Position numbers and translations under genes: made by a program. Source: a marine bacterium B5-7 (lineage in GTDB: Bacteria > Pseudomonadota > Gammaproteobacteria > Arenicellales > CAJQKF01). Taken from it: a stretch of 60,689 nucleotides of DNA. Below, piece by piece: positions 6,970 to 60,689 of the stretch (its first letter is position 1; every line of letters begins with the position of its first letter). The notes below the pieces were generated by a model. The model worked only from the letters and a program-made list of their open reading frames with translations, was not told the DNA's origin and did no database searches. The stretch spans positions 1-60,689 of the forward strand of contig BQJD01000022.1 in assembly GCA_021604525.1 (NCBI GenBank), written 5' to 3'.

Positions 6970-7540
6970 GGCTTAATGACAGTTCCATTATTCGTCCGTC
7001 AGGAAGCTCCATTGTCACCTCATCGACCAGCCGCTCACCCTTGAGAACGACTCTGCCTGCTTGATTCTCCCAACCTTTTCTTGCGATTAACGTGAAATAA
7101 AAACCGTTGTCCGTTCTTGCCTGTTCCACGGTGTAGTATCTATTGAGCACTTTTCGATCTAAAGACACCATTGCCATTACGAGACGACCTACTGTTCGCC
7201 TTTTCAGATGACGCATGCCACCCAGATCACCACTGACTTCGATTTCACCATTACTTTGTACAATCAATTTTCCATGGTTTGGATCCTGTATTTCCCAAAC
7301 CAGGCCACTTTGTGGTGAGTACTCATAACGCCCCTTGTATTGACGAATCTGCTGGCTGTGACGTGAGCTTAATGTTTGCACAAAGCTCCCGTGCATGTCC
7401 GTTCGTGAGCGATAGTTTGCAACGATTTCATCAAGAATATCACCGCGCACAATGCCCGGATGCGCGATAGAAAAGATAATGACAAAGCAATACACAAGCC
7501 GTGTCGGGAAATACCCTTGAGTCCACAATATCCGGCTCAT
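6959..7540 (-). CDS. LolA-like periplasmic carrier protein of the aryl polyene cluster
   Basis: 193 residues with an N-terminal signal sequence (hydrophobic residues about 13-31) and a beta-rich domain of the outer-membrane lipoprotein carrier family: SFVQTLSSR, KGRYEYSPQSGLVWEI and a C-terminal MELPDGR-type strand. LolA homologues in these clusters are expected to carry the hydrophobic product across the periplasm after the MMPL exporter. The start codon overlaps the thioesterase stop (ATGA, 4 bases). It is not the housekeeping LolA, since it lies inside the cluster and lacks an ftsK or rarA neighbour. Confidence 0.85.
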   Translation of the reverse strand: MSRILWTQGYFPTRLVYCFVIIFSIAHPGIVRGDILDEIVANYRSRTDMHGSFVQTLSSRHSQQIRQYKGRYEYSPQSGLVWEIQDPNHGKLIVQSNGEIEVSGDLGGMRHLKRRTVGRLVMAMVSLDRKVLNRYYTVEQARTDNGFYFTLIARKGWENQAGRVVLKGERLVDEVTMELPDGRIMELSLSHDA

Positions 7541-7953
7541 AAGTATCCTGACTGCTTGAGTTGCTGCTCTAATATCGCTGGACTTCCAAGACAGGTTTCT
7601 GAAGTTTCCATGTTAACTGCAACTTGAGTTGAAGACGCTTTACACAAACCATGCCCTGTAACGATATCCATGATTTCGTAATTTATGACGAGTCTGTATT
7701 CCCACTCTGTCATTCTTGCAATGACATTCAGTGATTGACCAAATATCGCCGGTCGAGCATAGCGTAGTGATAGTTTGATTACAGGCCACGCATATCCGGA
7801 TTGTTTCATTGCCGCATAGCCGTAGTTAATATTATCAAGCAAAACGCAACGTGCCCGTTCCAGATACTTGACATAATGACCGTGCCAGACCACGTTCATA
7901 CTATCAACATCGTAGAACGGAACAGCAATTTCACATTGTGCCTGCGGTAACAT
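7537..7953 (-). CDS. Hotdog-fold acyl thioesterase (4HBT family)
   Basis: 138-residue single-domain hotdog protein. The 4HBT signature is clear: FYDVDSMNVVWHGHYVKYLE, with catalytic Asp17 and the WHGHY helix start. Such enzymes hydrolyse acyl-CoA or acyl-ACP thioesters; in aryl polyene clusters a thioesterase of this type probably frees stalled or finished chains. The longer frame to 7992 would overlap the acyltransferase gene; the ATG at 7953 shares bases with that gene's stop (TAATG), the usual sign of translational coupling. Confidence 0.9.
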   Translation of the reverse strand: MLPQAQCEIAVPFYDVDSMNVVWHGHYVKYLERARCVLLDNINYGYAAMKQSGYAWPVIKLSLRYARPAIFGQSLNVIARMTEWEYRLVINYEIMDIVTGHGLCKASSTQVAVNMETSETCLGSPAILEQQLKQSGYL

Positions 7954-8894
7954 TAATTTTCTCCTTGCCAATACTTGTAGAAGTTGTACCACTGCTCGGG
8001 ATACTCAACAACAACCTCCTCCATGAAGTGAGCATACGACTGCACGATCTCCTGCAAATTTTTATTACGTGATCGTCGATCTCCAAACCCAAGACCATCA
8101 CTTAAACGACGAGTGATTACCCGATATTTCTCTTTTTCACGACAAATAAATACGGCAACTACAGGACACTTTAATACATGAGCCATAATCCATGGTCCTG
8201 TAGGCAAATGGATCTGTCCATCTAAAAATCTGATATCGACTGCTGCGTTTCTCTTGCCTCCAATCCGGTCAACCGGAATAACCACGACATCTCCATCATC
8301 CATGGCCTGATATAGCTGCATCGCTGAATCGATGCCGAAGTTATCGGTATCATAAAAGAACAGTCGATCATTTTGCATAGCTGCAAAGCGTTCGCTATTG
8401 AATCGACGTGTCCCGAAATGATCAATCAGTATGTGATACGTTCTGTCGGTCTTTGAAACACCCGCCGTCATCGCCAGATCGAAATTACCAAGATGTGATA
8501 CAACCAGAACCGCACCACGGTTAGAGGGCAAGTCTTTAAGAAGTTTATCGACTTCATTTACATCCTGCAGTGCTATCGGCTCATAATCACCACACCATGC
8601 TGCATATTTTTCTGCCATGGACAGCGCGAATGAATATATATGCCGATATGAACTTAACCACCCCTTGTTCAAGGCACATTTGAGATTGTGTTTTGCACAG
8701 TATCGATTGAGATGATCCAGATAGTCGAACGAAGCGTTGCGTGCAATCCGATGAGTTACGAGGTAGTACAGGGCAACGGGAATAAGTACAACTCGCAGCA
8801 CTGTCAATCCGCCAACCTTCAACACAACCTGCAGGATCGACACACCCATGTGAGATCCTCGTTCTGGAATATCCCGCCACTTTGCCGTTGTCAT
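7953..8894 (-). CDS. LpxL/HtrB-like lysophospholipid acyltransferase
   Basis: 313 residues. A hydrophobic N-terminal segment (about 17-45) should anchor it in the inner membrane. The HX4D acyltransferase motif appears as HLGNFD near residue 145, followed by IPVDR and the motif block LPTGPWIMAH typical of lipid A late acyltransferases. In aryl polyene clusters this activity is usually in one polypeptide with a glycosyltransferase; here the two are adjacent separate genes, and the ATG follows the stop of the glycosyltransferase gene directly. It probably links the polyene or a fatty acid to a lipid carrier. Confidence 0.87.
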   Translation of the reverse strand: MTTAKWRDIPERGSHMGVSILQVVLKVGGLTVLRVVLIPVALYYLVTHRIARNASFDYLDHLNRYCAKHNLKCALNKGWLSSYRHIYSFALSMAEKYAAWCGDYEPIALQDVNEVDKLLKDLPSNRGAVLVVSHLGNFDLAMTAGVSKTDRTYHILIDHFGTRRFNSERFAAMQNDRLFFYDTDNFGIDSAMQLYQAMDDGDVVVIPVDRIGGKRNAAVDIRFLDGQIHLPTGPWIMAHVLKCPVVAVFICREKEKYRVITRRLSDGLGFGDRRSRNKNLQEIVQSYAHFMEEVVVEYPEQWYNFYKYWQGEN

Positions 8895-9677
8895 CTAGTG
8901 ATTCCGAAGTACTCTCGCAATCAAACGCGGCGCTCTTGTGAGCATGCCGAAAAAACAGCGTATATGCATTCGGACAATTTCCAGATTGTCCAACAACGGT
9001 CTGAAGTGAGAAATACCTTCAGAAGGGTAGAAAACCCGAACCGGGATATTCAAAATCTGAATTCCAGCCCACACACTTCGAACACATATTTCTATATCAA
9101 ACCCCATGTGTGTGGCGATACGACCGCTTGATGCAGTAATGATGCTCAATGTTTGTGCAACAGGATAAATACGTAAGCCACACATCGAATCTCCCACGTC
9201 ACGTGACAGGCTGTTGATGCACACCCAGAAATGAGTCAGATACCGTCCATAATATCGAATCTTGGGCATAGAGCTGTCAAAATATGGTTTGCCGAGTACC
9301 AATGCGTTCGGCAGAACCCTACTTCGTTCAAGAAATTTCGGTATCTCATTAAGGTCATGTTGGGAATCAGCATCAACCTGAATCGCATGGGTATAACCTT
9401 GTTGCGCAGCATAACGAAGTCCGGATACTACGGCACCTCCCTTTCCGAGGTTTTCTTCATGTTGAATGAGATTTAGTGCAGACAATGGCGCGTCGTTAAC
9501 TATCTGGTCACAGATATCGCTGACTACTTTCCTGACAGTTAACGGGCTACCGTCATCTACAACGATCACCGGAATATTCAGACTACAGACGTATTCGACC
9601 ACCTTACCCAGAGTATTTTCATGATTGTAGTGCGGGATGATTGCACAACAACGATATGACGCTTGCTGGTCATGCAT
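8895..9677 (-). CDS. Family 2 glycosyltransferase (dolichol-phosphate-mannose-synthase-like) of the aryl polyene cluster
   Basis: 260 residues with the GT-A fold: IIPHYNHE at the start, VVDDGSP (about 39-45), NLGKGGAV, and the metal-binding DAD at 102-104 in QVDADSQHD. The C-terminal half contains GFDIEICVRSVW and FYPSEG, as in GT2 enzymes that use lipid-linked acceptors. It probably glycosylates the polyene lipid. Its start overlaps the end of the ligase-dehydratase gene by 8 bases. Confidence 0.88.
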   Translation of the reverse strand: MHDQQASYRCCAIIPHYNHENTLGKVVEYVCSLNIPVIVVDDGSPLTVRKVVSDICDQIVNDAPLSALNLIQHEENLGKGGAVVSGLRYAAQQGYTHAIQVDADSQHDLNEIPKFLERSRVLPNALVLGKPYFDSSMPKIRYYGRYLTHFWVCINSLSRDVGDSMCGLRIYPVAQTLSIITASSGRIATHMGFDIEICVRSVWAGIQILNIPVRVFYPSEGISHFRPLLDNLEIVRMHIRCFFGMLTRAPRLIARVLRNH

Positions 9678-11367
9678 CCAGTTCGATTATCCCTTTGGAA
9701 CAGATAATACCGTTACGCATATACTGGGTTTGTAGTTGACTATCGGATACCGCTAGTGAGAGATCAAGCTGATCCAGTGGATGAAGTACTTGCATAAATT
9801 TGAGGTTGATCAGTCGACGAACATTGGGATTAACTCCAAGATATGCTTGAGCGAATCTCATTGCCCAGTGAACAAGGGCCACCCCGGGAACTATGGCTGT
9901 TTCCTGGAAATGTCCATCAAGCACATAAAGGTCCGGATCAATCAATATTTTAATTCTTACTGAACTCACATCCCGATTAACTTCAAGAACGCTCGGCAGA
10001 AATCGGGCACCTTCAGTGAATGCTGCAGATAAAAGACCATGATCTATCTTTCCCTGGGCGTTTACTGGTAATGCCCCCAGATATCGAATAACACGAGGCA
10101 CCAGTACTGCCTCCAGGGATTCGGCAAGTACATGACGAAGCAACCGGTCGACGTGTTGCTTTCCTTCAGAACGCAGTATCCCGAGTCCCTTCTCCGTTAA
10201 TACGACAGCGAGTGCAACACTAATGCGCATATCTTCATGTAACTTGGCTGTACAGCTCTCAACACATTCGATTTGCTGAACTAAATTTTCAATCTCCTGT
10301 AATGAAACGCGTTTACCTTCAACCTTGACTACCCGGTCGACTCGACCTACTAATTTGAAAGACTGACCAACCGACTCAACCAGATCGGAGCTTAAATACT
10401 TACTCGCAACTTCCCTGGCATGATAGTTTGCCTGAATGGTGAGTCTGCCTTCGGTTATTTGCAAATCAACCCCGGGCAATGCTTCCCAACTGCTGTCAAT
10501 ATCGGCACGACGGGTTGCAACGGCACCAGTTTCCGAACTTCCATATATCTCATGGACGGGACACGAAAGAAGTTTACTGACAATCGATGATTTCTCATTA
10601 TCAAGAGGTGAACCGGCACTGAATACCCGGTCGATCTTCACTGGATGATCATAAAGATCCACCAGGTTGGCAAGCGCGAAACTTTTACTTGCACGATGAA
10701 TATATGTCGGACTTGAAATCAGGCAGATTTTTCGATTGACTGTGTTATCGAGTGTTGAGATATCAGGGACAGGAAAGGGCGCAGCCTGAAGAACGCGTGC
10801 TCCACACGACAATGGCCACAATACGCCAAACATGAGACCGTACATATGGTGATGGGAGACCATCGATACCGTCACGATACTATCGTTAAGTGACCACTTT
10901 CCCTGAAGTGTAGACGCCTCTTCAAGAAAAGTATGGAGATACCGACTCAATTGTTTGCGAACACCGGTGCTTCCCGACGTCAAAACAATAATAATTCCGG
11001 GGCGAATATCGGGCAAAGACTCATCATCCATATCGTTTAGCGTTATAGAAGAATGATCCTGATTATTTGTGAAATAAAGGCCCACCTGCCGAACCATCAC
11101 ATCTGTGGAAATCAGACTGGGAGCCAATTGTTTGGTCGAGTGAGCATCTGGTAATAGCGTGATACTGCCGCCACCCAGGGTAACCCCATAAAGACAAACA
11201 CTGAACCAGAAAATATCCGGTTCGTGCAACAACCAATCCCCGCCACCGTGATAGGCAACGTAACGAGCCATCGCAGCAATATGACGTCTAAGACTTGTAG
11301 CGTCGAGCGTACCCTCACATACAGTGGTTGTTTCAGCAACAAGTTGCGATAGCTCAAGTCTTGTCAT
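9670..11367 (-). CDS. Fused acyl/aryl-AMP ligase and ApeI-like thioester dehydratase
   Basis: 565 residues with two domains. Residues 1 to about 450 form an AMP-binding ligase: P-loop TSGSTGVRK (130-138), YGSSETGAV, and GRVDRVVKVEGKRV. Residues from about 465 form a FabZ/ApeI-like hotdog domain with GHFQETAIVPGVALV, where His486 matches the catalytic His of dehydratases. The ligase should activate the aromatic starter acid and load it on an ACP (role of ApeH); the hotdog domain should remove water during chain extension (role of ApeI). In E. coli these are separate genes. The start overlaps the preceding gene by 4 bases (ATGA). Confidence 0.88.
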   Translation of the reverse strand: MTRLELSQLVAETTTVCEGTLDATSLRRHIAAMARYVAYHGGGDWLLHEPDIFWFSVCLYGVTLGGGSITLLPDAHSTKQLAPSLISTDVMVRQVGLYFTNNQDHSSITLNDMDDESLPDIRPGIIIVLTSGSTGVRKQLSRYLHTFLEEASTLQGKWSLNDSIVTVSMVSHHHMYGLMFGVLWPLSCGARVLQAAPFPVPDISTLDNTVNRKICLISSPTYIHRASKSFALANLVDLYDHPVKIDRVFSAGSPLDNEKSSIVSKLLSCPVHEIYGSSETGAVATRRADIDSSWEALPGVDLQITEGRLTIQANYHAREVASKYLSSDLVESVGQSFKLVGRVDRVVKVEGKRVSLQEIENLVQQIECVESCTAKLHEDMRISVALAVVLTEKGLGILRSEGKQHVDRLLRHVLAESLEAVLVPRVIRYLGALPVNAQGKIDHGLLSAAFTEGARFLPSVLEVNRDVSSVRIKILIDPDLYVLDGHFQETAIVPGVALVHWAMRFAQAYLGVNPNVRRLINLKFMQVLHPLDQLDLSLAVSDSQLQTQYMRNGIICSKGIIELDA

Positions 11368-49248: not shown

Positions 49249-49572
49249 CTATGAATTCGCCAACCGGAGGCGTTCTACAACAGAACCGTGTACGAGGTGG
49301 TTGTCGATAATGTCATCGATATCCTGATGATCTATATACGTGTACCAGGTCTCTTCCGGATATACCACGATAACCGGACCCAGTTCACACCGATCCAGGC
49401 ATCCTGACTGGTTTATTCGAACCCCCTTCGGTCCATTTAAACCAAGTTCCTTTATCCGCTTTTTAGCGTAATCGCGCATTGATTGCGCACCATGATCCTG
49501 ACAACAAGCTTCACAATTTGTACGCTGGTTAGTGCAAAAGAACACGTGGTATTTGTAATAGCTTTCACTCAT
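49249..49572 (-). CDS. Thioredoxin-like 2Fe-2S ferredoxin
   Basis: 107 residues. Cluster-binding cysteines are Cys13, Cys20 (or 23/24) and Cys58, Cys62 in SGCLDRCELGP, a fold of the thioredoxin-like ferredoxin family. It lies 23 bases after glcF on the same strand and thus probably belongs to the glycolate operon, where it could accept or pass on electrons. Such a ferredoxin often appears as a stand-alone protein of this length. Confidence 0.85.
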   Translation of the reverse strand: MSESYYKYHVFFCTNQRTNCEACCQDHGAQSMRDYAKKRIKELGLNGPKGVRINQSGCLDRCELGPVIVVYPEETWYTYIDHQDIDDIIDNHLVHGSVVERLRLANS

Positions 49573-49595
49573 TAATCTGTAATTGCTTTAAGGTT

Positions 49596-50819
49596 TCAGA
49601 CAGCAACCTGTAAATCTTCAGCAACAAGTTCTGCCCAATGTTTTACCGGAACCCCGGAGCGGGTCATGAGGTATGTCTGACAACCGACATTGGCCGTTAC
49701 TATAACCTCAGGGTCACCCGCCATCAGGTTACCGAGTTTATTACGCAGCAACTGCCCGGATAGTTCCGCCTGCAACACACTGTAGGTACCGGCTGATCCG
49801 CAGCATAAATGTGCATCGGTAACCATTGTTAGTTGGTAACCCAGCATCTGAAGCAATCTTTCAACCTGTCCGGTTAGTTTCAGGCCATGTTGATACGTAC
49901 ACGGCGCATGAAACGCAATTCGGGACACGCTGGGTTTAATATTCACCTGCTCGATATCGTCACTAACGAACTCACAGAGATCCCGGACCAGTTCGCTAAC
50001 CCGCTGCGCGCGCACCGCGTAAGCCGAGTCGTCTTTCATGACGTGGCCATAATCCTTTACCATCAATTGGCAACCACTGGCGGTAACTATGAGGGCCTCA
50101 ACCCCGTTTTCAATATGAGGCCACCACGCATCAATATTACGGCGAATTTGTTGCCGTGCCCGATTCGCGAATGAAAGATGCTGACTAAGTGAGCCGCAAC
50201 AGCCTGCAGCAGCGACGGTAACCGTCTCAATACCCAGGCGGTCAAGAATAAGCTTCGCAGCCTGATTGGTCCGCGGTGTCAGAGTTGGTTGCACACAACC
50301 GTCAAGCATTAGCACCCGACGATCATGAGACCCTGTGACAACCTCGAAATTTTTCTGGGTTGGAGTAATCTTTGCCTTGATCGATGACGGCAGGACCGGA
50401 CGCACCAGACGGGCCAGAGTGAATGATACGCGAGCGAGTTGGGGTTGGCCGAGAAAGCGGTCCAGCATCAGTCGAGTAAAAGACTCTAGCGCTGGTCGAC
50501 GGGTCTTTTGTTCAACAATCAACCGCCCAATATCCAGTAACTTGCCATATTCCACGCCAGATGGACAGGTTGTCTCGCAGGATCTACAGGTCAGACAACG
50601 ATCCAGATGAAGTCGTGTGGTGTTGGTAGGTTCGGTTCCTTCAAGTACCTGCTTGATCTGATAAATCCGCCCACGCGGTCCGTCGAGCTCATCGCCGAGT
50701 AGCTGATAGGTAGGACATGTTGCCGTGCAAAAACCACAGTGAACACATTTTCGCAGAATATCTTCAGCTTCCTCTCCCTGGGGTGTATTGCGAAATTCTT
50801 CAACAAGATTTGTTTGCAT
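49596..50819 (-). CDS. glcF: Glycolate oxidase iron-sulfur subunit
   Basis: 407 residues. Two 4Fe-4S motifs are in the N-terminus (Cys25-28-31-35 and Cys75-78-81-85, each ending in a CP). Two CCG domains follow (DGCVQPT ... AGCCGSLSQH and HAPCTYQH ... LCCGSAGTYS). It passes electrons from the flavin subunits to the quinone pool. It starts 3 bases before the end of glcE's stop region and is coupled to it. Confidence 0.95.
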   Translation of the reverse strand: MQTNLVEEFRNTPQGEEAEDILRKCVHCGFCTATCPTYQLLGDELDGPRGRIYQIKQVLEGTEPTNTTRLHLDRCLTCRSCETTCPSGVEYGKLLDIGRLIVEQKTRRPALESFTRLMLDRFLGQPQLARVSFTLARLVRPVLPSSIKAKITPTQKNFEVVTGSHDRRVLMLDGCVQPTLTPRTNQAAKLILDRLGIETVTVAAAGCCGSLSQHLSFANRARQQIRRNIDAWWPHIENGVEALIVTASGCQLMVKDYGHVMKDDSAYAVRAQRVSELVRDLCEFVSDDIEQVNIKPSVSRIAFHAPCTYQHGLKLTGQVERLLQMLGYQLTMVTDAHLCCGSAGTYSVLQAELSGQLLRNKLGNLMAGDPEVIVTANVGCQTYLMTRSGVPVKHWAELVAEDLQVAV

Positions 50820-50821
50820 GG

Positions 50822-51970
50822 CTACAGATCCCGATACAGTCGCCCGGGGTTAAGAATCCCGGCTGGGTCGAAACTGGCTTTAAGATTCTCGAACAACCGT
50901 CGACTCACACTATCTGCAGGTGGATTCATCTCTGCCTCACGATCAATAGAGCGAAACCGTATGGCATGTCCGCCGTGCTTTTTGCAGAGTGATTCAATCT
51001 CGTCATGATCAAATTCCTGGAAACGAACGCGCAGCCAACGCACTGCCCCACCCCACTCAACCAATGTCGGCGGTTCAACTGGCAGCACGGGTGTCGCTGG
51101 TGGAAGTGATAACCTCCATAGATCGATATCATCATCAGCGGTATCGTTTTGCGTGAAGAACTCGTGATTCTGGTTACGTAGTGAGCGCCATAACTCATCA
51201 CCCGCATCGAATTGCTCACCCCCCACTGCTGCTTCACCGGCGCCAACACCTGATTCGGAGCCTGAAAGCCGTATATAAAGCTGCCCATCGTAATAGCATG
51301 TGGCGTCAATCGGTGTCGGTGTAGCCAACATTCGTTTCAGAAATTGATGTGCGCTGTCCTCATCCATCTCGAGCATGCGGGTGGCAACCTTGATTGGTGC
51401 AGGCAGAACCTTGAACGACGCCTCGACGACGACACCGAGTGTACCCAGCGAACCCGTCATGAGCCGTGACACGTCATAACCAGCAACGTTTTTCATCACC
51501 TGCCCACCAAACTTCAATACCTCACCACAACCATTCACGCATACGGTTCCAAGTATGTAATCACGTACCGAACCAGACCATGGCCGCCGTGGCCCCGACA
51601 GACCCGCTGCCACCATCCCTCCCACAGTCGATGAACCTGAGGGTGTTTTCTCCGATTCAGAATCAGCATCACGGCTATGCGAACCTCGGTCATTGCTCAT
51701 GCCATGTTCAAACAGTGGTGGCTCAAACGGCAGCATTTGACCATGTTCCCGAAGTAGCGACTCAACCTCTTCAACAGGCGTTCCACAGCGTGCGGTAAGA
51801 ACCAACTCGGCAGGATCGTAGTCCACAATGCCGTGATATTCAGTGGTCAGGAGTGTTTGCCCCATTGGTGTTCGACCGAGAAAGTCTTTACTGCCTCCAC
51901 CTCGAATACACAACGGCGTTTTGTTTTTGAAAGCCGTTATGACTTGCCCGGCAATATCCTCAATATGCAT
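50822..51970 (-). CDS. glcE: Glycolate oxidase FAD-binding subunit GlcE
   Basis: 382 residues with a FAD_binding_4 domain: CIRGGGSKDFLG and a glycine motif in the VGGMVAAGLSGPRR region. Two low-complexity insertions are visible: a Ser/Asp-rich stretch after MSNDRG (about residues 92-112) and a Gly/Ala stretch before EQFDAGDELW. The start overlaps the glcD stop (TGATG). It works with GlcD and GlcF. Confidence 0.92.
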   Translation of the reverse strand: MHIEDIAGQVITAFKNKTPLCIRGGGSKDFLGRTPMGQTLLTTEYHGIVDYDPAELVLTARCGTPVEEVESLLREHGQMLPFEPPLFEHGMSNDRGSHSRDADSESEKTPSGSSTVGGMVAAGLSGPRRPWSGSVRDYILGTVCVNGCGEVLKFGGQVMKNVAGYDVSRLMTGSLGTLGVVVEASFKVLPAPIKVATRMLEMDEDSAHQFLKRMLATPTPIDATCYYDGQLYIRLSGSESGVGAGEAAVGGEQFDAGDELWRSLRNQNHEFFTQNDTADDDIDLWRLSLPPATPVLPVEPPTLVEWGGAVRWLRVRFQEFDHDEIESLCKKHGGHAIRFRSIDREAEMNPPADSVSRRLFENLKASFDPAGILNPGRLYRDL

Positions 51971-53463
51971 CAGAATCGCTCGATATCGGGATGTGGCAAT
52001 GTACCTCCGTGGACATGCATGGCATTGAACTCAGCGCAACGGGCAAGCGTCGGAATTGCCTTGCCAGGGTTAAGCAACAAATGAGGATCGAATGCGTGCT
52101 TGATGCGATGAAACTGTTCCAGTTCCTTATCATTGAACTGCACACACATCTGGTTAATCTTCTCGACACCCACTCCGTGTTCACCGGTAATCGTTCCACC
52201 AGCTTCGACACAGGCCTCGAGAATCGCTCCACCCAAAGCCTCGGTACGCTCAAACTCACCGGGTTTATTCGCATCGTAGAGAATCAATGGATGCAAATTG
52301 CCGTCACCAGCGTGAAAAACGTTGGCTACTGCGAGGCCGTATTCACCGGAAAGTCGTGAAATATTTTCAAGAATTCCTGCCAACTGTCGCCGTGGTATCG
52401 TGCCATCGATACAGTAGTAGTCCGGTGAGATTCGACCAACTGCCGGAAACGCATTCTTGCGGCCTGACCAGAATCTAACCCGTTCAGCCTCATCACAGGA
52501 AACGCGTATATCAACAGCGCCAGCATCAGTGAGGACATGGCGAACCTGTTCAATCTGATCCTCAACTTCCTCGTCTATTCCGTCGAGTTCACAAATCAAA
52601 ATTGCCGCCGCATCCAGCGGATAACCGGCGTGAACAAAATCTTCGGTGGCGCGGATTGCCGGGTTGTCCATCATTTCAAGACCAGCCGGCAGTATGCCGT
52701 TGGATATAATACTTGCGACCGCATTACCGGCCGTTTGCACATCATCAAAGCTCGCTAGCACAGCGCGCGCACTGGTGGGTTTCGGTAACAGTCGCACCGT
52801 AACCTCAACCACGATACCCAATAAGCCTTCAGACCCTGTCATCAATGCAAGCAAATCATAGCCGGGAGTATCGAGTGCATCGGAACCGACTTCGAATAAT
52901 TCCCCTTGCACCGTCACAACCTTTAACTTGATGAGGTTATGCACCGTCAGGCCATACTTCAGGCAATGGACCCCACCGGCGTTTTCAGCCACGTTACCAC
53001 CAATTGAGCAGGCAATTTGAGAGGATGGGTCAGGTGCATAATACATTCCAAGATGCTGAACGGCTTCTGAAATTGCCAGATTCCTCACACCGGGTTGAAC
53101 AATCGCAGTTCGATTATCAGCATCGATTGACACAATACGATTGAAACGTGACATGCCCAGTAAGATACCGTTCTTATAGGGCAACGCACCGCCTGATAGT
53201 CCTGTTCCAGCACCCCGCGCGACCACCGGAATTGAATGATCGCTGCAAAAACGCATGATTGTACAGACCTCATCGACAGTACCAGGCAGCACAACCGCAA
53301 GTGGCAGCTCCTGGTAAGCACTCAAGCCGTCGCATTCGTACGGTGCGAGTTCCTCCTGCGCGGTCAATACGTAACGTGCGTCGACAATTTGCTTCAAGCC
53401 GGTTGCGATTTCTGCGCGTGTTAAAGTCGATTCAACATTGATATCAGATACAAAAGTCGCCAT
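51970..53463 (-). CDS. glcD: Glycolate oxidase subunit GlcD (FAD-linked)
   Basis: 497 residues. FAD_binding_4 motif VVARGAGTGLSGGALP and the PQ-type loop YYAPDPSSQ are clear, and FAD-oxidase_C ends with GTITGEHGVGVEKI. It oxidises glycolate to glyoxylate. I place the start at the ATG at 53463; an adjacent TTG at 53466 is poorer. A TATAAT box on the minus strand (53535-53530) lies upstream. It begins the glcDEF-ferredoxin operon. Confidence 0.95.
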   Translation of the reverse strand: MATFVSDINVESTLTRAEIATGLKQIVDARYVLTAQEELAPYECDGLSAYQELPLAVVLPGTVDEVCTIMRFCSDHSIPVVARGAGTGLSGGALPYKNGILLGMSRFNRIVSIDADNRTAIVQPGVRNLAISEAVQHLGMYYAPDPSSQIACSIGGNVAENAGGVHCLKYGLTVHNLIKLKVVTVQGELFEVGSDALDTPGYDLLALMTGSEGLLGIVVEVTVRLLPKPTSARAVLASFDDVQTAGNAVASIISNGILPAGLEMMDNPAIRATEDFVHAGYPLDAAAILICELDGIDEEVEDQIEQVRHVLTDAGAVDIRVSCDEAERVRFWSGRKNAFPAVGRISPDYYCIDGTIPRRQLAGILENISRLSGEYGLAVANVFHAGDGNLHPLILYDANKPGEFERTEALGGAILEACVEAGGTITGEHGVGVEKINQMCVQFNDKELEQFHRIKHAFDPHLLLNPGKAIPTLARCAEFNAMHVHGGTLPHPDIERF

Positions 53464-53624
53464 CAAATAATCTCGTGGTAAATGTGCGTGTCACATTCCG
53501 GTGTGTCTGTCGCGTCAGCTCCTGAGTGGATTATAGTCGAAGATATGCCTATGATTCGGAACTCAATACAGCATAGACCGATCCTGATTTAAACCTTACT
53601 TCCTGTCCCGAATTAGTTATACCC

Positions 53625-56600
53625 GTGCAACATTCCATTCGTTTTGATTTCAAACGCCTGCAGACCTGTGAAGGACTCCAGGAGCTGACTCATCAGTTCA
53701 ATACTTATGTCGAGGAGAATCATCCTCAAATTGCTGAAAGACTTGAGGCATACCGCGCAGCCGATAATGTTTTCAGTAAGCTTGAGGAGAGTAAAGTCAT
53801 TCTTGAAACGGCACCGCTACTTGATTCTTTCGTTGCACATTTATTCGGCGTCCATCATGAAGTCAAGGATCTGGCGGAAGAAATTCAACGCGAAACACGT
53901 ATCGACTGGTTCAAAAAAAACGTTATCCAGAAGCGAGTCAGACGCTACCGCCAACCAATTGATTTTAAATTTGAAGACCTTGATCATTGGCTGGATGAGA
54001 CACTTTCGAAACATCTAATCGACACCACTGATCGGGAATACGCAGTTGCAAGTCTCGCTCAAAGTCTGCATACAAGTAATAGCGAAGATGAGTCTTTTGA
54101 AAAACTGCTGCAATGGTGTGTGTTAGCAGATAAACATGACGATGCCTGTACATCATGGGTATCCTTTAAATCGCCTAAAAGGATCGATCATGCTCATCTG
54201 GTCTCTCTTGAACAAATCAAGGGCGATACCATCGAACGACGCCAGGGAAAGAGCAACGCTTTCCGGCAGCGTTCGGATTTCTCGTTGACTGATCACAGAA
54301 TGAGTCAACGTGAAGTCTTGAACGAGATTAATTACTGTGTTTTTTGTCATGACCACGATGGTGACTTTTGTTCTATTGGTTTTCCGGAAAAGAAGAAACA
54401 ACCAGGGCTTGGGCTCAAAAAAAATCCTCTTGGCGTGACTCTGACCGGCTGCCCGCTGGAAGAAAAAATATCCGAGATGCACGTGCTAAAGCGGGATGGA
54501 CATACCATCGCCGCCTTGGCGGTAGCAATGATAGACAATCCCATGATTCCGGCTACCGGGCATCGCATCTGCAACGACTGCATGAAGGCATGCGTCTATC
54601 AGAAAAAAGATCCGGTTGATATTCCGCAAACCGAAACCCGTATTCTTACAGATGTCCTTAATCTCAGTTACGGCGTTGAGATTTATGATTTGTTGTGTCG
54701 GTGGAATCCACTACGCAAACAACAGCAGATGATGAAACCGTATCGTGGCCGCAATGTCCTGGTAGTTGGCATGGGCCCAGCAGGATTTACTATCGCTCAT
54801 CATCTGACCATGGAAGGCTGTGCGGTAGTTGGCATCGATGGACTAAAAATTGAGCCGCTACCGGAGGAGTTAATCAATCAACCCATTCGGGATTTCTCGA
54901 GTATCTGTGAAAATCTTGACGACCGCATTTTGGGCGGTTTTGGCGGTGTTGCCGAGTATGGCATCACGGTTCGTTGGGATAAGAACTTCCTCAAATTAAT
55001 CTATTTGACACTCGCTCGACGCTCACTGTTTCGAGTGCACGGCGGTGTACGTTTCGGTGGTACCGTAACCCTGGCTGATGCTGAGAGACTGGGTTTCGAT
55101 CATGTCTGCATCGCCACCGGTGCAGGATTACCGCGTGTCATCGGCATGGGTAATAGCCTCGCCCGCGGGATGCGCCAGGCAAGCGATTTCCTCATGGCGC
55201 TACAGCTTACCGGGGCTGCGAAGGACGATAGTCTGGCTAATCTTCAAATACGCATGCCCGCAGTAGTAATCGGTGGCGGACTGACTGCGGTTGATACTGC
55301 TACTGAAGTCCAGGTTTATTACCTCAAACAGATTCGCAAGATTCACCATCGATACCAAACTCTTATCGATCATTTCGGTGAAGAACACGTTACTGGCGGA
55401 CTGGATGAAGAAAGTCGCGAGATATTAAAGGAATATCTTAACCACGCTGAGCAATTGCATGATGAGGAATCAGCGGCCAAGAGGGAGTCGCGACAACCTG
55501 ACTATGTGGGACTGATGCGACGCTGGGGCGGAGTGACTATTGTTTATCGAAAAGGCATCAATGAATCGCCTGCCTACCAGAGAAATCATGAGGAACTCAT
55601 CAAAGCGCTTGAGGAAGGGATCTATTATGCGGAAGGACTCAATCCGGTCCGTCTGGAACTTGATGAATTCAAACATGTAAAGTCATTGATATGTTGCCGC
55701 ATGCACCAGGAAGACGGGCGTTGGCTGAGAACCAGTGAACAGGTGTTTGTTCCCGCCCGTGCGGTGTTGGTAGCAGCCGGTACGCTTCCAAACACCATTT
55801 ACGAAAATGAACATCCAGGTACTTTCATGATGGATGGCAGTCATTTTCTACCACATGTCGACCACGATCATGAACTGCAACCCGTACAGGTTGCCGAGCA
55901 TAGCAAGGCAGCAAGATTCGGACCATTCACATCGTATCAACGCGAAGGCTTTCGGGTCAGCTTTCTCGGTGATACGCATCCTGTATTTAATGGCAGTGTG
56001 GTGAAAGCAATTGCCTCAGCAGCAAGAAGTTATCCTGAGATCATTGGATCTTTTCACGAAGCAATCAAACCTGTTGATGAGTTATCCAAAATCAATCCCG
56101 ACGATTTTTTGAGCAAGATGGACGACCAACTGGCTACCACGGTGCTATCAGTAAATGATTCACACCCGGTAGTGCTTGAAATGTGGGTTCGTTCGCCGCT
56201 AGCCGCACATAACTTTCACGCCGGACAATTCTTTAGAATGCAAACCTTTGAAAGCAAAAGCAAAATCGTTGAGAACACACGCTTGCAAATACCACTGCAA
56301 ACCGTCAGTGGTGCCGGTGTGCGTGGAGACGTCATACGCTTAATGTTACTCAAATGGGGGGCCAATGCACGACTTGCATCCATGCTTAACGAAGGCGACC
56401 CCCTTGTTTTGATGGGTCCAACCGGTGCACCCATGGATGTTGGCGAAGGCAAGACATTTCTGATTGTCTCAGGCACTTGGGGGGCGGCAGTCATGCTGGG
56501 TCTGGGTCCTGTATTGAGAGCAGCGGGAAATCGGGTAATTTACGTAGCTTCGTATACCGATCAAAGTCAGTTGTACAGCAAGCAGGAACTTGAAGCAGCG

Positions 56601-57128
56601 ACCGATGCCATCATCTGGGCAGTTGGTACAGGTGAGCGAATCAAGCCGGCTCGTCCGCAGGATTGCTCGGTAGTCACTGGTAACATGATCCAGCTATTGA
56701 AAGACTATGCCAGTGGCGATGTCAGTCCGGATAATCGTTTGCTGAAGGCACCTTTGGATGAGGTCGATGAGGTGTTGGTAATGGGTTCGACAGGATTATT
56801 GAAAGGCATGCAAGCCGCATTCAGGGAAGGCCTTGCACAATTGTTTAGAGCCGATGTAAAAATAAACGGTACCGTGGGAAGCCCAATGCAATGCATGATG
56901 AAAGGTGTTTGCGGTCAGTGCTTGCAGTGGCAGATCGACCCGGATTCCGGTGAACGAACACGCGCTGTGTTCTCCTGTGCCATGCAAGATCAACCACTGA
57001 TGTGGATCGATCTCGATAATCTTGCAGCACGACAAGGTCAAACCCGGCTACAGGAGCAACTGACCACACTTTGGGTTAACCACGTTTTGAGTAAAGTAGA
57101 AAAACCAGTTGTAACTGAGCTTAACTGA
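53625..57128 (+). CDS. Large NfnB/GltD-like plus NfnA/PyrK-like fusion oxidoreductase
   Basis: 1167 residues. Order: an uncharacterised helical N-terminus (1-230); a Cys-rich 4Fe-4S domain (CVFCHDHDGDFC near 238, GCPLEE near 275, CNDCMKAC near 315); a FAD/NAD(P) Rossmann domain (GMGPAG near 382, and a second nucleotide site GGGLTAVDTATEV near 549), as in GltD and NfnB; then from about 826 a ferredoxin-reductase/PyrK-like half with a FAD and NAD domain and a C-terminal 2Fe-2S motif (CMMKGVCGQC, then a Cys 18 residues later). Together these are the two halves of NADH-dependent ferredoxin:NADP oxidoreductase in one chain. GTG start; divergent from glcD. Confidence 0.82.
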   Translation: MQHSIRFDFKRLQTCEGLQELTHQFNTYVEENHPQIAERLEAYRAADNVFSKLEESKVILETAPLLDSFVAHLFGVHHEVKDLAEEIQRETRIDWFKKNVIQKRVRRYRQPIDFKFEDLDHWLDETLSKHLIDTTDREYAVASLAQSLHTSNSEDESFEKLLQWCVLADKHDDACTSWVSFKSPKRIDHAHLVSLEQIKGDTIERRQGKSNAFRQRSDFSLTDHRMSQREVLNEINYCVFCHDHDGDFCSIGFPEKKKQPGLGLKKNPLGVTLTGCPLEEKISEMHVLKRDGHTIAALAVAMIDNPMIPATGHRICNDCMKACVYQKKDPVDIPQTETRILTDVLNLSYGVEIYDLLCRWNPLRKQQQMMKPYRGRNVLVVGMGPAGFTIAHHLTMEGCAVVGIDGLKIEPLPEELINQPIRDFSSICENLDDRILGGFGGVAEYGITVRWDKNFLKLIYLTLARRSLFRVHGGVRFGGTVTLADAERLGFDHVCIATGAGLPRVIGMGNSLARGMRQASDFLMALQLTGAAKDDSLANLQIRMPAVVIGGGLTAVDTATEVQVYYLKQIRKIHHRYQTLIDHFGEEHVTGGLDEESREILKEYLNHAEQLHDEESAAKRESRQPDYVGLMRRWGGVTIVYRKGINESPAYQRNHEELIKALEEGIYYAEGLNPVRLELDEFKHVKSLICCRMHQEDGRWLRTSEQVFVPARAVLVAAGTLPNTIYENEHPGTFMMDGSHFLPHVDHDHELQPVQVAEHSKAARFGPFTSYQREGFRVSFLGDTHPVFNGSVVKAIASAARSYPEIIGSFHEAIKPVDELSKINPDDFLSKMDDQLATTVLSVNDSHPVVLEMWVRSPLAAHNFHAGQFFRMQTFESKSKIVENTRLQIPLQTVSGAGVRGDVIRLMLLKWGANARLASMLNEGDPLVLMGPTGAPMDVGEGKTFLIVSGTWGAAVMLGLGPVLRAAGNRVIYVASYTDQSQLYSKQELEAATDAIIWAVGTGERIKPARPQDCSVVTGNMIQLLKDYASGDVSPDNRLLKAPLDEVDEVLVMGSTGLLKGMQAAFREGLAQLFRADVKINGTVGSPMQCMMKGVCGQCLQWQIDPDSGERTRAVFSCAMQDQPLMWIDLDNLAARQGQTRLQEQLTTLWVNHVLSKVEKPVVTELN

Positions 57129-57175: not shown

Positions 57176-57745
57176 TTAACACGGGATACTCGCAAGAAGG
57201 CGCTGCCAATCAAAATATGGCCCCGGATCAGTTTTACGCCCCGGCGCAATGTCAGAGTGCCCGAATAACCGATCTGGTCCTAACCATGGCCAACGCGATC
57301 GAAACGTTCGCACCAGTAATGCGAGATTGTCATATTGCGCCAGCGTGAATGATTCATGATCGCAACCCTCAAGCTCGATTCCGATCGAGAAATCGTTCAC
57401 ACAATCCCTGCCAAGACATTCTGACACACCAGCATGCCAAGCCCGTTTATCAACTGCCACAAACTGGGTCAGCAATCCGCTGCGCCGGATATAAAAATGC
57501 GCGGATACCTTTAAAGATTCAATATCCTTGAAATATGGATGCCCGCTGCTATCAAGACGATTGGTAAATAACGCCTCTACGTAATCACCGCCATATGCTG
57601 TTGGTGGCAAACTGATGGCATGAATAATGACTGCTTCAGGCTCAGAGTAATCGGGCCTTTCATCATAATTATCTGATTCAATACAACGCACGGGTGCATC
57701 AAGCCAATTACCTTGCCAGCAAAGGATCGTTTCGGCCAAATTCAT
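57176..57745 (-). CDS. ampD: 1,6-anhydro-N-acetylmuramyl-L-alanine amidase AmpD
   Basis: 189 residues, amidase_2 fold. Zinc ligands are His42 (VIIHAIS), His163 (FGHSDIAPGRKTDPGPYFDW) and Asp173, with Lys171 in place. It releases the peptide from anhydromuropeptides in the cytoplasm during peptidoglycan recycling. Its start overlaps the stop of the glutamate-synthase-like gene (TGATG), an odd coupling. Confidence 0.94.
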   Translation of the reverse strand: MNLAETILCWQGNWLDAPVRCIESDNYDERPDYSEPEAVIIHAISLPPTAYGGDYVEALFTNRLDSSGHPYFKDIESLKVSAHFYIRRSGLLTQFVAVDKRAWHAGVSECLGRDCVNDFSIGIELEGCDHESFTLAQYDNLALLVRTFRSRWPWLGPDRLFGHSDIAPGRKTDPGPYFDWQRLLASIPC

Positions 57746-59262
57746 CAGACAGCACTATTGGATCTTTCCACCACCGGGTAGGGATATCGATCCTCCAGCG
57801 ACATGGAACTGCCGTTAGAAATCACCACTCTGGCATGCTCACGTTTCAGTTCACGAGGTTCTCCGACGCCACATGAATGGGCGATCATGCCGACATCGTG
57901 AGTAATATTTCTAATATAGTTGGCAACCCGAACTGCTTTATCTTCGACGACGAGGCCTTTTTGTAAATCCGGATCATGGGTTGTGATACCAGTCGGACAC
58001 GTATTCTTATTACATTGCATTGCCTGGATACATCCGAGGGCAAACATATTGCCGCGCGCTGAATTAATAAAGTCAGCGCCTAGACATAGTGCCCAGGCTA
58101 CCTCAACCGGAGTGATTAACTTGCCAGATGCGATAACCCGGATTCTATCCTTCAAACCGTATTCAAGTAGTTTGTCAACCAACATGGGCAGACTCTCGTT
58201 AAGCGGCAAGCCCACGTTGTCCATCAATGCCATTGGCGCCGCACCAGTACCCCCCTCTGCACTATCAACCGTTATAAAATCGGGCGCTTTATCAATGCCC
58301 CTGTCTATAATTCTCTGCATTAGAGTATCAAGCCAATTATAGCCACCAAGTACCGCCTTAAAACCGACCGGCAGTCCACTAACTGAACGTATGTGATGTA
58401 GCATATCCAGCAAATCATCTGCCGAAGCGATTTCAGGATGCCGGTTCGGACTAATCGAGTCGTGTCCAGCGGGAATGCCTCGTATCTCGGCAATCTCATC
58501 GGTTACCTTATTGCCAGGTAAGATACCGCCTTTCCCCGGCTTGGCACCCTGGCTCAGTTTTAGTTCGATCATCTTCACGGACTTGTGACTCGACAACTTA
58601 CGTAGTTTGTCATCAGACAAACCACCACTTGAATTCCGCACGCCGTACTTGGCTGTACCGATCTGAAAGACGATATCAGCGCCACCTTCCAGATGATATT
58701 TCGATAATCCACCTTCTCCCGTGTTTAACCATGAACCAACTTGGGCGGCACCACGCGATAGTGCACGAATTGCCGGTACTGACAACGCACCGAAGCTCAT
58801 CGCTGAGATATTGAACAACGCCTCAGTCGTATAAGGATGTAAACAATTCGGACCTATGGTCACCGCTCGAGTAGGTGTAGCGTCTTCCTCAAGCGTTGGA
58901 AATGGAGTATTTACGAAGTAGACGGTACCGGTAGCATGTAAATTACGTGTGGTACCGAAAGCCACCGTATTGTCGACATTCTTGGCAGCGCGATAAACCC
59001 AACTACGCTCAGCTCGATTGAATGGCAACTCTTCTCGATCCATAGCAAAAAAGTACTGACGAAAAAACTCACCAAGATGCTCGAATATGTACCGAAATCG
59101 ACCGACAACAGGATAATTTCGGCGAATTGCATGCTTGGTCTGAGTAACATCAATCACGTACATGATGATAATTGCCATGATCCCACTTCCAAGAAAGAGC
59201 AGAAACAATCCCGACATGACTTCAAGAAACACCAGAAAATACTGGCTTAGTTCAACAGACAT
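57745..59262 (-). CDS. FMN-binding glutamate synthase-family protein with N-terminal membrane segments
   Basis: 505 residues from the ATG at 59262. Two hydrophobic segments (about 8-35) precede a GltS central/FMN domain: FNISAMSFGALS, a TGEGG loop, KPGKGGILPG and a GADFINSARG turn. The 3Fe-4S cysteines are in QCNKNTCP. No glutaminase or GltD-like subunit is in the same operon, though a GltD-like enzyme is encoded on the other strand upstream of ampD. Reaction unknown; membrane attachment is inferred from the N-terminus. Confidence 0.87.
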   Translation of the reverse strand: MSVELSQYFLVFLEVMSGLFLLFLGSGIMAIIIMYVIDVTQTKHAIRRNYPVVGRFRYIFEHLGEFFRQYFFAMDREELPFNRAERSWVYRAAKNVDNTVAFGTTRNLHATGTVYFVNTPFPTLEEDATPTRAVTIGPNCLHPYTTEALFNISAMSFGALSVPAIRALSRGAAQVGSWLNTGEGGLSKYHLEGGADIVFQIGTAKYGVRNSSGGLSDDKLRKLSSHKSVKMIELKLSQGAKPGKGGILPGNKVTDEIAEIRGIPAGHDSISPNRHPEIASADDLLDMLHHIRSVSGLPVGFKAVLGGYNWLDTLMQRIIDRGIDKAPDFITVDSAEGGTGAAPMALMDNVGLPLNESLPMLVDKLLEYGLKDRIRVIASGKLITPVEVAWALCLGADFINSARGNMFALGCIQAMQCNKNTCPTGITTHDPDLQKGLVVEDKAVRVANYIRNITHDVGMIAHSCGVGEPRELKREHARVVISNGSSMSLEDRYPYPVVERSNSAV

Positions 59263-59434
59263 CGTATTTCCTCTTTGATAATCCGACCAGCAACGGGGTC
59301 CAGACATTTATCATACTGAATCGCCAGACATCGAATATGCCATCCTCGATGCATAAACATTCAGACGAACAACGGATCTGCTTCCCTCTGCACCAACGAT
59401 TCCACGTTTAAATTATGCTTTAAGAACAAAAATT

Positions 59435-60689
59435 GTAACCGTTCGGTCATTCCCTGTTGACGTTTGTCTTCCAGTTGTGTGGCAGGAGTTGATCAAGCTG
59501 TGAGTAGGTAATGGTCGGCAACCGTTCCATCACATTATTTAGATAGGCGTGCGGGTCGATACCATTGATCTTGGCCGACTGGATCAGTGTCATGATATTG
59601 GCGGCGCGTTGGCCACTTCGCAGCGAGCCGGCAAACAACCAGTTGGAGCGGCCCAGCGCCCACGGCCGGATCTGGTTCTCCACCCAGTTGTTGTCGATGG
59701 GTACCGCCCCATCATCGAGGTAACGGGTCAAGGCCCGCCAACGCTTCAGGCTGTAGTCGATGGCTTTCGCGATGGCCGTGCCATCGGTCACCTGTTCGCG
59801 TTGTCCGATCATCCATGATCGGAGTTTATCGAGGATCGGTTTGGCCCGATCCAGGCGTATTCGCTGGCGCGTTTCAGTGTCTTGATCGGCTGTATCCCGC
59901 TCGATATCGTAGAGTAAGCCGATGGTTGTCAGAGCCCTTTGTGCAATCGGGCTCTGATTGGCCACATGCAGGTCATGGAACTTGCGCCGCGCATGGGCCA
60001 TGCAGCCGATTTCGGTGATACCCAGTCCGAAGCTGGCCTTGTATCCCTGATAATCATCGCACACCAGTTTGCCCCTCCAGCCGTTGAGGAACGTACGCAC
60101 CTCCTTGCCGGCCCGGCTCGGTCGGAAGTCATAGACAACACCCTGTATAGGCGCAAAGCGCGTCGTGGCATAGGCCCACACATAGGCACGATGCGTGCGT
60201 TTCTTGCCGGGCGCCAGCATCGATACCGGCGTCTCGTCGGCATGCAATACGGATTGCCGCTGTAATATCTCTCGAAGTCGATTCACCAGTGGTGTGAGTT
60301 CCACACTACACCGACCCACCCAGTCCGACAGGGTGGAACGGGGCAGATCCAATCCGGCTCGGGCATAAATCTGCTGCTGACGGTACAGCGGCAGGGGGTC
60401 TGCATACTTGGATACCAGCACCTGGGACAACAGGTTCGTCGTCGGGATACCTTTGTCGATGATATGCGGTGCCACTGGCACCTGAACCAGAGTGTCGCAG
60501 GTCCGGCAGGCCCACTTGCCTCGGATATGTCGCTCGACGCTGAAGGTACCGGGGGTATAGTCGAGTTTCTCGCTGACCTCTTCACCGATGCGTTCCATCT
60601 GACAACCGCAAGCACATAGGGTCGAGTCGGGTTCATGGTGGATGAAGGTACGAGGTAACTGCGGGGGTAACGGCTGGCGTCTTGCTTTT
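59435..60689 (-). mobile_element. IS66-family insertion sequence (partial, right part beyond the window)
   Basis: The transposase gene fills this stretch. The element edge is probably near 59435, where GTAACCGTTCGGTCATTCCC begins with the GTAA of IS66 terminal repeats and lies just beyond the transposase stop. The other end is outside the window, so its repeat and the target duplication cannot be checked. Confidence 0.7.
59447..60689 (-). CDS. IS66-family transposase TnpC (partial)
   Basis: 414 visible residues; the frame runs past the right edge. A zinc-finger region (CACGCQ ... CRTCD), the DDE transposase core (LHADETPV, VCDDYQGYK and NNWVENQIRPWALGR, with Asp-Asp-Glu) and a GCMAHARRKF block are typical. 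The N-terminal coiled coil lies outside. IS66 elements move by cut-and-paste or copying with TnpA and TnpB, which are not visible. Confidence 0.93.
   Translation of the reverse strand, partial: KARRQPLPPQLPRTFIHHEPDSTLCACGCQMERIGEEVSEKLDYTPGTFSVERHIRGKWACRTCDTLVQVPVAPHIIDKGIPTTNLLSQVLVSKYADPLPLYRQQQIYARAGLDLPRSTLSDWVGRCSVELTPLVNRLREILQRQSVLHADETPVSMLAPGKKRTHRAYVWAYATTRFAPIQGVVYDFRPSRAGKEVRTFLNGWRGKLVCDDYQGYKASFGLGITEIGCMAHARRKFHDLHVANQSPIAQRALTTIGLLYDIERDTADQDTETRQRIRLDRAKPILDKLRSWMIGQREQVTDGTAIAKAIDYSLKRWRALTRYLDDGAVPIDNNWVENQIRPWALGRSNWLFAGSLRSGQRAANIMTLIQSAKINGIDPHAYLNNVMERLPTITYSQLDQLLPHNWKTNVNRE

Follow-up and report, generated by a model that had tools for sequence, protein, structure and literature searches.

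A single-chain oxidoreductase built on the plan of Nfn in a marine gammaproteobacterium, a probable NADP(H):ferredoxin oxidoreductase with an altered second branch

The DNA analysed here, called the window throughout, is the whole stretch of 60,689 nucleotides in contig BQJD01000022.1 of the marine bacterium B5-7 (assembly GCA_021604525.1), and it carries at 53625..57128 on the plus strand a gene for a one-chain oxidoreductase with one half like NfnB and one half like NfnA of the flavin-bifurcating ferredoxin:NADP (nicotinamide adenine dinucleotide phosphate) oxidoreductases. The open reading frame (ORF) encodes 1167 amino acids followed by a stop codon, is free of internal stops, and begins with a GTG that is the earliest ATG, GTG or TTG in its frame. 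In a comparison with 121 relatives, the alignment begins at or before residue 16 for 110, and 109 are full length in a single frame; the fusion is thus not an assembly artefact. When the genome was searched with its own protein, this ORF was the single match.

Family models place the protein loosely. The top model, NF005128 (PRK06567), scores 588 bits with its best stretch at residues 3–690, under a cut-off of 1072. Models for PyrK-GltD fusions, GltD and SudB-type proteins rank next on both halves, all below their own cut-offs; the GltD models TIGR01317 and TIGR01318 give 36 and 25 bits where 447.7 and 482.95 are called for, and the fused Nfn model NF009415 (PRK12779) gives 78 bits against a curated 1519. 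In Pfam, Pyr_redox_2 exceeds its cut-off and Fer4_20 stays under it (20 versus 25.8). Sequence matches in the PDB are NfnI and NfnAB chains, together with 8oh5_C, which is named a formate dehydrogenase subunit in one place and a StnABC chain in another. The name attached to PRK06567, ‘glutamate synthase beta/2-polyprenylphenol hydroxylase’, we take to be inherited, and it tells nothing of a tested function.

An AlphaFold2 model of the full chain, built on an alignment of 57 sequences (A2), has a mean predicted local distance difference test score (pLDDT) of 87.8 and a predicted template modelling score (pTM) of 0.91, with pLDDT below 50 at residues 442–446 (beside the flavin-site loop), 1092–1100 (the 2Fe-2S loop) and 1160–1167 (the C-terminal end). 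In this predicted structure, residues 183–812 match Pyrococcus furiosus NfnI-L (5jfc_L; Z 20.7, root mean square deviation 2.3 over 441 residues, 26% identity), followed by Xfn (5vj7_A, Z 20.2) and Thermotoga maritima NfnB (4ylf_B, Z 19.7), and lower down by GltD (2vdc_G, Z 18.4), two domains of thioredoxin reductase (Z 18.1 over 278 residues) and DPD (Z 17.3). Because NfnI-L stands above GltD, the thioredoxin reductases and DPD, we read the B half as being of the Nfn type. Residues 832–1154 match T. maritima NfnA (4yry_C; Z 15.8, root mean square deviation 3.0 over 260 residues), which puts both Nfn halves into a single chain, B before A. An earlier note on this DNA had read the ORF as a fusion of NfnB/GltD-like and NfnA/PyrK-like halves and had proposed structure prediction as a check; the ORF, its relatives and the fold matches of both halves bear that reading out.

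Conservation was counted over the 86 rows of one alignment (A1), comprising the window protein and 85 others from a non-redundant set of 87 full-length relatives, with L048 and L090 excluded, and it is distributed very unevenly along the chain. Mean pairwise identity is 32.6% in the N-terminus, 68.8% in the 4Fe-4S part, 57.9% in the part binding flavin adenine dinucleotide (FAD) and NADP, 45.5% in the a-FAD barrel, 37.0% in the NAD subdomain and 57.3% in the 2Fe-2S part. The NfnB-like part (residues 211–820) holds 105 of the 117 invariant residues; four fall in the flavin/NAD part and eight in the 2Fe-2S part.

The most conserved portion is the predicted two-[4Fe-4S] domain (residues 211–365; 54255..54719, on the plus strand like all features of this gene), whose eight predicted ligands C238, C241, C249, C276, C316, C319, C323 and E337 (codons within 54336..54635) are each present in 86/86 rows and would bind two clusters. 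The ligands given for T. maritima NfnB in a part of PMC7596348 are Cys39, 42, 47, 51, 90, 96, 100 and Glu117. All eight, including the glutamate of the proximal cluster, thus have putative counterparts here, where the second motif was aligned by hhalign and the first, left gapped by it, was paired by hand; the first motif has the spacing C-x2-C-x7-C-x26-C, which differs from that of Nfn. The FAD and NADP(H) Rossmann domains follow (residues 366–820; 54720..56084), as judged from the predicted structure and hhalign. Within them R450 (54972..54974) aligns with the arginine of the NfnB motif GIPEFR and is present in 86/86 rows, and from this alignment we take it as the counterpart of the arginine at N5 of the bifurcating FAD. 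The earlier note had named the flavin site as the place where the comparison with NfnAB could fail, and there the aligned residue is retained. Where NfnB has its NADP phosphate motif YRR, the window has Y641, R642 and K643 (55545..55553); R642 is found in 86/86 rows, and position 643 is R in 51, K in 34 and Q in one. The NADP domain also contains a helical insert, approximately residues 577–632 (55353..55520), that is missing from the NfnB references.

The NfnA-like half is altered in ways that bear on its partner. In the a-FAD-type β-barrel (residues 832–940; 56118..56444) the ERxPxT strand is lost, since columns 885–893 are not conserved (P890 in 34/86, T893 in 33/86), and in the NAD-type Rossmann subdomain (residues 941–1080; 56445..56864) the GGGVG loop is eroded, with glycine at 949 in 50/86, at 950 in 62/86 and at 953 in 59/86, the window having S949. 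The [2Fe-2S] domain with its C-terminal helix (residues 1081–1160; 56865..57104) has four cysteines, C1090, C1096, C1099 and C1118 (56892..56978), in 86/86 rows each, instead of the set with an aspartate ligand found in Nfn (DGTGMCGxC); the Nfn aspartate lies near the first of them. In relative L201, which is 1023 residues long, gaps fall at 68 of 140 positions in the NAD subdomain, and at 18 in the barrel, 37 in the B half, 17 in the N-terminus and 15 in the 2Fe-2S part; by eye, L201 retains the cluster cysteines and E337. It matches the PRK06567 model (1031 positions) almost end to end; its gene lies at 7477-10545 in a single-contig genome of 1.39 Mb. This pattern of conservation, together with the gaps of L201, points to a conserved machine of NADP(H), FAD and two 4Fe-4S clusters with a 2Fe-2S side branch, and it makes NAD(H) an unlikely common second partner.

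Preceding both halves is a helical N-terminal domain (residues 1–210; 53625..54254), the least conserved part of the protein. The first 233 residues, folded alone from 56 sequences (A3), gave a mostly helical model with pLDDT 89.9 and pTM 0.77, for which neither Foldseek (best E 1.4) nor VIA-align (best Z 5.0) returned a credible match in the PDB. A known fold was accordingly rejected, and the earlier description of some 230 residues of unknown kind stands; the missing match is no proof that the fold is new. Homology to the N-terminus of PRK12779-type fused Nfn was likewise rejected at an hhalign probability of 1.1%, obtained with only seven close template sequences. A frame of 112 residues in another genome (G230:C1:238830-239051) matches residues 9–82 only (34% identity, E 2.3e-5), and is perhaps a stand-alone relative of this unrecognised domain.

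The family is widespread. Searches with one genome per species confirmed at least 578 relatives among 584 candidate stretches, and the best 80, which were listed, include titles from Acidithiobacillus, Ignatzschineria, Methyloglobulus, Sulfuricella and a Coxiella metagenome-assembled genome, with many titled Gammaproteobacteria; several of the named hosts are aerobes. In an even draw from the class of the window, taken as Gammaproteobacteria, 53 of 274 genomes carry the gene, spread over 35 families. This count includes G259, where the gene is in fragments, and treats as lacking it 12 genomes with weak matches only (best 6.7e-9), eleven of which lie in the GltD-like part and one (G230) in the N-terminal part. 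The PRK06567 model finds 17 of 398 genomes of a phylum sample at 1e-30 and none at its cut-off of 1072. Near-full-length or split copies occur in 12 of the 60 nearest genomes, the window’s own included, and weak matches only in eight. Among 72,556 plasmid records one, pTcM1 of Acidithiobacillus caldus, encodes most of the protein.

There is no fixed operon around the gene, and three links recur: fdxA, a module with an AprA/FrdA-type flavoprotein, and sulfate assimilation. FdxA (E up to 1e-25) was found in all 53 class-draw genomes with the gene and in 165 of the 221 without it (Fisher p 1.2e-6, uncorrected for phylogeny); these counts among carriers, like those for CysI, CysJ and the Glu_synthase protein below, were made by eye from search lists. 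In flanking DNA, fdxA appears at 8 of 60 sampled loci, at six of them within about 2 kb, and one arrangement reads fdxA, grxD, the oxidoreductase gene and nadA, where the names grxD and nadA were assigned by eye and a thioredoxin-like 2Fe-2S ferredoxin is present in part of the cases. On a tree of 106 rows made with FastTree, at least six changes are required to explain the label ‘fdxA within about 4 kb’ (14 rows). The branches of L196, L197, L201 and L183 are long in this tree, some loci are shared between the sets, and short-flanked rows were scored as having no fdxA nearby.

The second link is seen on pTcM1, where the order is gntR, flavoprotein, 4Fe-4S protein, HEAT protein, fdxA and oxidoreductase gene; the module recurs at least in part at L098 and L057, and at L192 an AprA/FrdA-type flavoprotein module lies 3–5 kb from the oxidoreductase gene. 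The flavoprotein is best matched by PRK08275 (fumarate reductase/succinate dehydrogenase, 1044.9 bits), with the alpha subunit model of adenosine 5'-phosphosulfate (APS) reductase second at 312.9, short of its cut-off of 557. The plasmid copy (L123, 6361-14032) sits beside ABC transporter genes, and the GntR regulator was seen at L123 and L098. A figure legend in PMC12375680 labels the same module as ferredoxin/APS reductase/GntR and lists it with a sulfonate transporter, and passages of that paper assign to related plasmids operons that serve to take up and assimilate organosulfonates.

The third link is to sulfate reduction. At L198 (G327:C5, 1658-10914) the order is sulfite reductase, siroheme gene, cysH, cysD, cysNC and oxidoreductase gene, at L204 (G614:C4, 6577-13211) the oxidoreductase gene directly follows cysD and cysNC, and at L202 cys genes lie about 4 kb away. 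No cysJ was evident by eye among the ORFs around L198 and L204, a reading confined to these surroundings and not extended to the whole L198 genome, and in these sets the oxidoreductase is a candidate electron supply. Replacement of CysJ across the class was rejected, all 10 CysI-bearing carriers also matching CysJ, and the cys-operon cases at L198 and L204 are therefore lineage-specific. The window’s genome has no match to CysI, and the cys-operon links say nothing about it. As a separate observation, the genome of L125 (G000:C14, at about 78 kb) encodes, beside a DsrK-like protein, a second protein of GltD type whose C-terminus is rich in cysteines and resembles a ferredoxin; going by PMC7596348, the pair is possibly DsrKL of a sulfur oxidiser.

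Taken together, we regard the protein as a single-chain NADP(H):ferredoxin oxidoreductase on the Nfn plan, with a second branch serving another acceptor, and give this a probability of roughly 0.64. Sequence and predicted structure show the fold of both halves, the conservation of the putative cofactor ligands and of the arginine aligned with that at N5, the YR[R/K] residues at the NADP motif and the genomic association with FdxA; cofactor loading, FdxA as partner, a flow from NADPH to ferredoxin and any bifurcation are inferred. NADPH would pass a hydride to the FAD of the NfnB-like half, and one or both electrons would move by way of the proximal, Glu-ligated cluster and the distal [4Fe-4S] cluster to a ferredoxin, most likely of the FdxA type, which in its reduced form would feed ferredoxin-dependent enzymes. 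The 2Fe-2S cluster and the second FAD-type barrel of the NfnA-like half would be the exit for the other electron, probably not to NAD(H) in all members. The direction from NADPH to ferredoxin is suggested by the sulfur-reducing neighbours in some lineages and by the lack of an evident other source of reduced ferredoxin in such hosts. The ferredoxin link is better supported than the link to glycolate, discussed below.

Several observations weigh against this reading. Much of the B half is shared with GltD- and DPD-type proteins, and conserved flavin residues alone are no evidence of bifurcation. FdxA is common anyway, being present in 218 of the 274 class genomes, and its co-occurrence carries no phylogenetic correction; 52 of the 60 sampled loci had no FdxA-type gene in the available flank, although at 13 of the 60 one flank or both fell short of 2 kb. 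The sulfite reductase at L198 passes only PRK13504, the model for the NADPH-dependent hemoprotein subunit (676 bits), with the ferredoxin-dependent Sir (542.9 bits) and CysI (525.5 bits) models both under their cut-offs, and a ferredoxin-dependent enzyme there is therefore unsupported. Across the class there is no link to sulfite reductase either, CysI being found in 10 of 53 carriers and 23 of 221 other genomes (p 0.10). Finally, we found no report of an assayed relative in the open-licence literature, and no activity is known.

Within the NADP(H):ferredoxin reading lies the tentative sub-case of active flavin-based bifurcation, in which the electrons of NADPH would be split between ferredoxin and, through the 2Fe-2S cluster and second FAD, an acceptor other than NAD+, as part of PMC6405883 suggests for NfnII/Xfn. 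The arginine aligned with that at N5 and the Glu and Cys ligands of the proximal cluster, all in 86/86 rows, would fit such coupling, as would the four-cysteine 2Fe-2S site, which is retained even in L201, a protein that has lost about half of its NAD subdomain. However, the aspartate ligand tied to the high potential of the Nfn 2Fe-2S cluster is replaced by cysteine, the ERxPxT strand is missing, the NAD loop is eroded, and DPD has a similar arginine without bifurcating. Passages of PMC6405883 point both ways: every Nfn homologue is said to carry the arginine that bonds N5 of the bifurcating FAD, which is taken to reflect how much it matters for bifurcation, but the corresponding arginine is also kept in non-bifurcating Etfs, and a short-lived anionic semiquinone is treated as insufficient; moreover, the large survey of Poudel 2018 (PMC6085437), in the portion of its text considered here, placed Nfn in only one aerobe. 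Coupling between the branches is possible: the arginine favours it, while the different ligands of the 2Fe-2S cluster and the alterations at the NAD site speak against the textbook version.

That textbook version, a canonical NADH-dependent Nfn transhydrogenase that would use NADH and reduced ferredoxin to reduce two NADP+, is improbable: although both predicted halves have the Nfn fold, the NAD loop, the ERxPxT strand and the aspartate ligand are not preserved, and the NAD subdomain is poorly conserved (37.0%) and about half gone in L201. The NAD(H) site of NfnA is, according to a section of PMC6405883, less conserved within Nfn itself. Of the earlier proposal, then, the two-half Nfn-type architecture holds and the classical NADH-dependent chemistry is not supported.

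A different partner is suggested by the neighbours in the window, where the oxidoreductase gene is divergent from glcD (51970..53466, minus strand) across 158 bp of intergenic DNA, with glcE, glcF and a thioredoxin-like [2Fe-2S] ferredoxin gene beyond (49249..51970, minus strand). GlcE and GlcF pass their family cut-offs, GlcD scores 836 against 897, and the small 2Fe-2S gene beside glcF is thioredoxin-like by models that it matches below their cut-offs, so the divergent glcDEF and the accompanying 2Fe-2S gene of the earlier note are both recognisable. One promoter-like site was found in the divergent region, against 0.7 expected. The order glcD-glcE-glcF followed by the thioredoxin-like ferredoxin gene (window 49249-53466) recurs in 4/4 genomes of the family (the window’s own, G657, G658 and G659), as does the larger block in which the oxidoreductase gene is followed by ampD and a Glu_synthase-domain gene; the oxidoreductase proteins are 67–77% identical, and the gene of G657 is split over two contigs. 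Ribosomal protein genes flank the block (some named by eye), and gene order near ribosomal genes is generally slow to change.

The block is a genuine arrangement, but a local one. BLAST found no glcD, glcE or glcF at the other loci of two overlapping sets (124 and 61 loci, window included), in which flanks were uneven: 47 of 60 loci in the second set had 2 kb or more on both sides, and loci from the class draw and the phylum scan only about 1.5 kb. Nor were these genes or the block found in seven of the eight other relatives of the order that carry the gene, the eighth (G691, L209) being left out. As a general partner glcDEF was thus rejected, or at least weakened given the uneven flanks, and the earlier suggestion of a role in redox balance during glycolate use holds only as a local association. 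That the oxidoreductase is a redox-balancing partner of glycolate oxidation is hardly likely, since its conservation within one family, at the protein identities given above, is set against the absence of glcDEF from the other loci read, many with short flanks, and against the slow change expected of a block flanked by ribosomal genes; glycolate dehydrogenase, too, normally feeds its electrons to the quinone pool.

Convergent to the oxidoreductase gene lie ampD and, behind it, a gene for a Glu_synthase-domain protein (PF01645) of 520 residues (57745..59307, minus strand); this is the neighbour that the earlier note had called GltS-like. It has a hydrophobic N-terminus and, by eye, a C-x5-C-x4-C motif, presumably the 3Fe-4S motif of GltB. 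That the oxidoreductase serves as a GltD-like electron feeder of this neighbour, directly or via ferredoxin, in a glutamate-synthase-like pair is very improbable: this motif, the block in 4/4 family genomes and a nearby Glu_synthase-domain gene in another arrangement at L062, L063 and L068 speak for it, but relatives of the neighbour (E up to 1e-60), found in 145 of 274 class genomes, are not associated with the gene (29/53 versus 116/221, p 0.88), by which a general partnership was rejected, and the window’s own genome has, on contig C2, a separate 1563-residue Glu_synthase frame beside a 500-residue Fer4_20 frame, gltB- and gltD-like, by which replacement of GltD was likewise rejected or at least weakened. 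Further on, a transposase-like ORF (window 59447-60688) runs off the end of the window; at L233 and L236 the Glu_synthase-domain gene is followed instead by genes read by eye as rpoA and ribosomal protein genes, so that there has probably been an insertion here.

To our knowledge, the route by which many aerobic bacteria reduce low-potential ferredoxin is unsettled. A single-gene Nfn-like enzyme, conserved in 53 of 274 class genomes and hidden by a misleading inherited name, is a testable candidate for this task, and it offers a naturally occurring form of the bifurcation machinery in which the exergonic branch is changed. More doubtful is the further idea that the family is a flavin-bifurcating ferredoxin reductase, widespread but overlooked among Gammaproteobacteria that are for the most part aerobic, with its Nfn-type bifurcating half intact and its NAD-linked, high-potential branch rebuilt for another acceptor; in that case cells lacking anaerobic ferredoxin sources could make low-potential ferredoxin from NADPH.

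We found no paper on this oxidoreductase family in the open-licence literature, the nearest being PMC6405883 with its Pattern C. Compared with NfnAB/NfnSL (P. furiosus NfnI, T. maritima NfnAB), the window protein shares the predicted fold of both halves and retains the putative 4Fe-4S ligands as well as the arginine aligned with that at N5, with YR[R/K] in the family where NfnB has YRR, but it is one chain in the order B-A with an extra helical N-terminus and an insert in the NADP domain, its 2Fe-2S site has four cysteines where Nfn has Asp-Cys3, and ERxPxT and the NAD loop are not preserved. PRK12779-type fused Nfn (L130–L136), which we equate by assumption with Pattern C of Liang et al. 2019, is likewise a single chain with a C-terminal a-FAD/2Fe-2S half and an N-terminal extension; unlike the window family, however, L130 keeps DATGMCG, IPLT and GGVG (by eye), and by hhalign the N-termini are not homologous. 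Part of the text of PMC6405883 describes Pattern C, with the A half C-terminal, as uncharacterised in 2019 and present in Actinobacteria, Alpha- and Gammaproteobacteria, and gives the Nfn homologues considered there as 40–90% identical to Clostridium kluyveri NfnAB.

The PRK06567 model remains the closest, its N-terminus included, with the window protein below its cut-off. Of the more distant systems, GltD, DPD and DsrL share with the window protein the GltD-type core of 4Fe-4S, FAD and NAD(P) domains; GltD partners with GltB, and DPD has a pyrimidine-reducing domain. In DsrL, according to a passage of PMC7596348, a linker and a C-terminal ferredoxin domain stand where the window protein has its NfnA-like half. 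P. furiosus NfnII/Xfn (5vj7) has the same fold in the prediction but is archaeal and made of two subunits, and a section of PMC6405883 describes it as free of NAD-dependent activity, with a possibly different acceptor. Because the fused and other Nfn types differ from it in these ways, and no paper on the family was found, we place the family outside canonical Nfn; it is therefore best called a family that works like Nfn in its conserved half and is not a canonical member.

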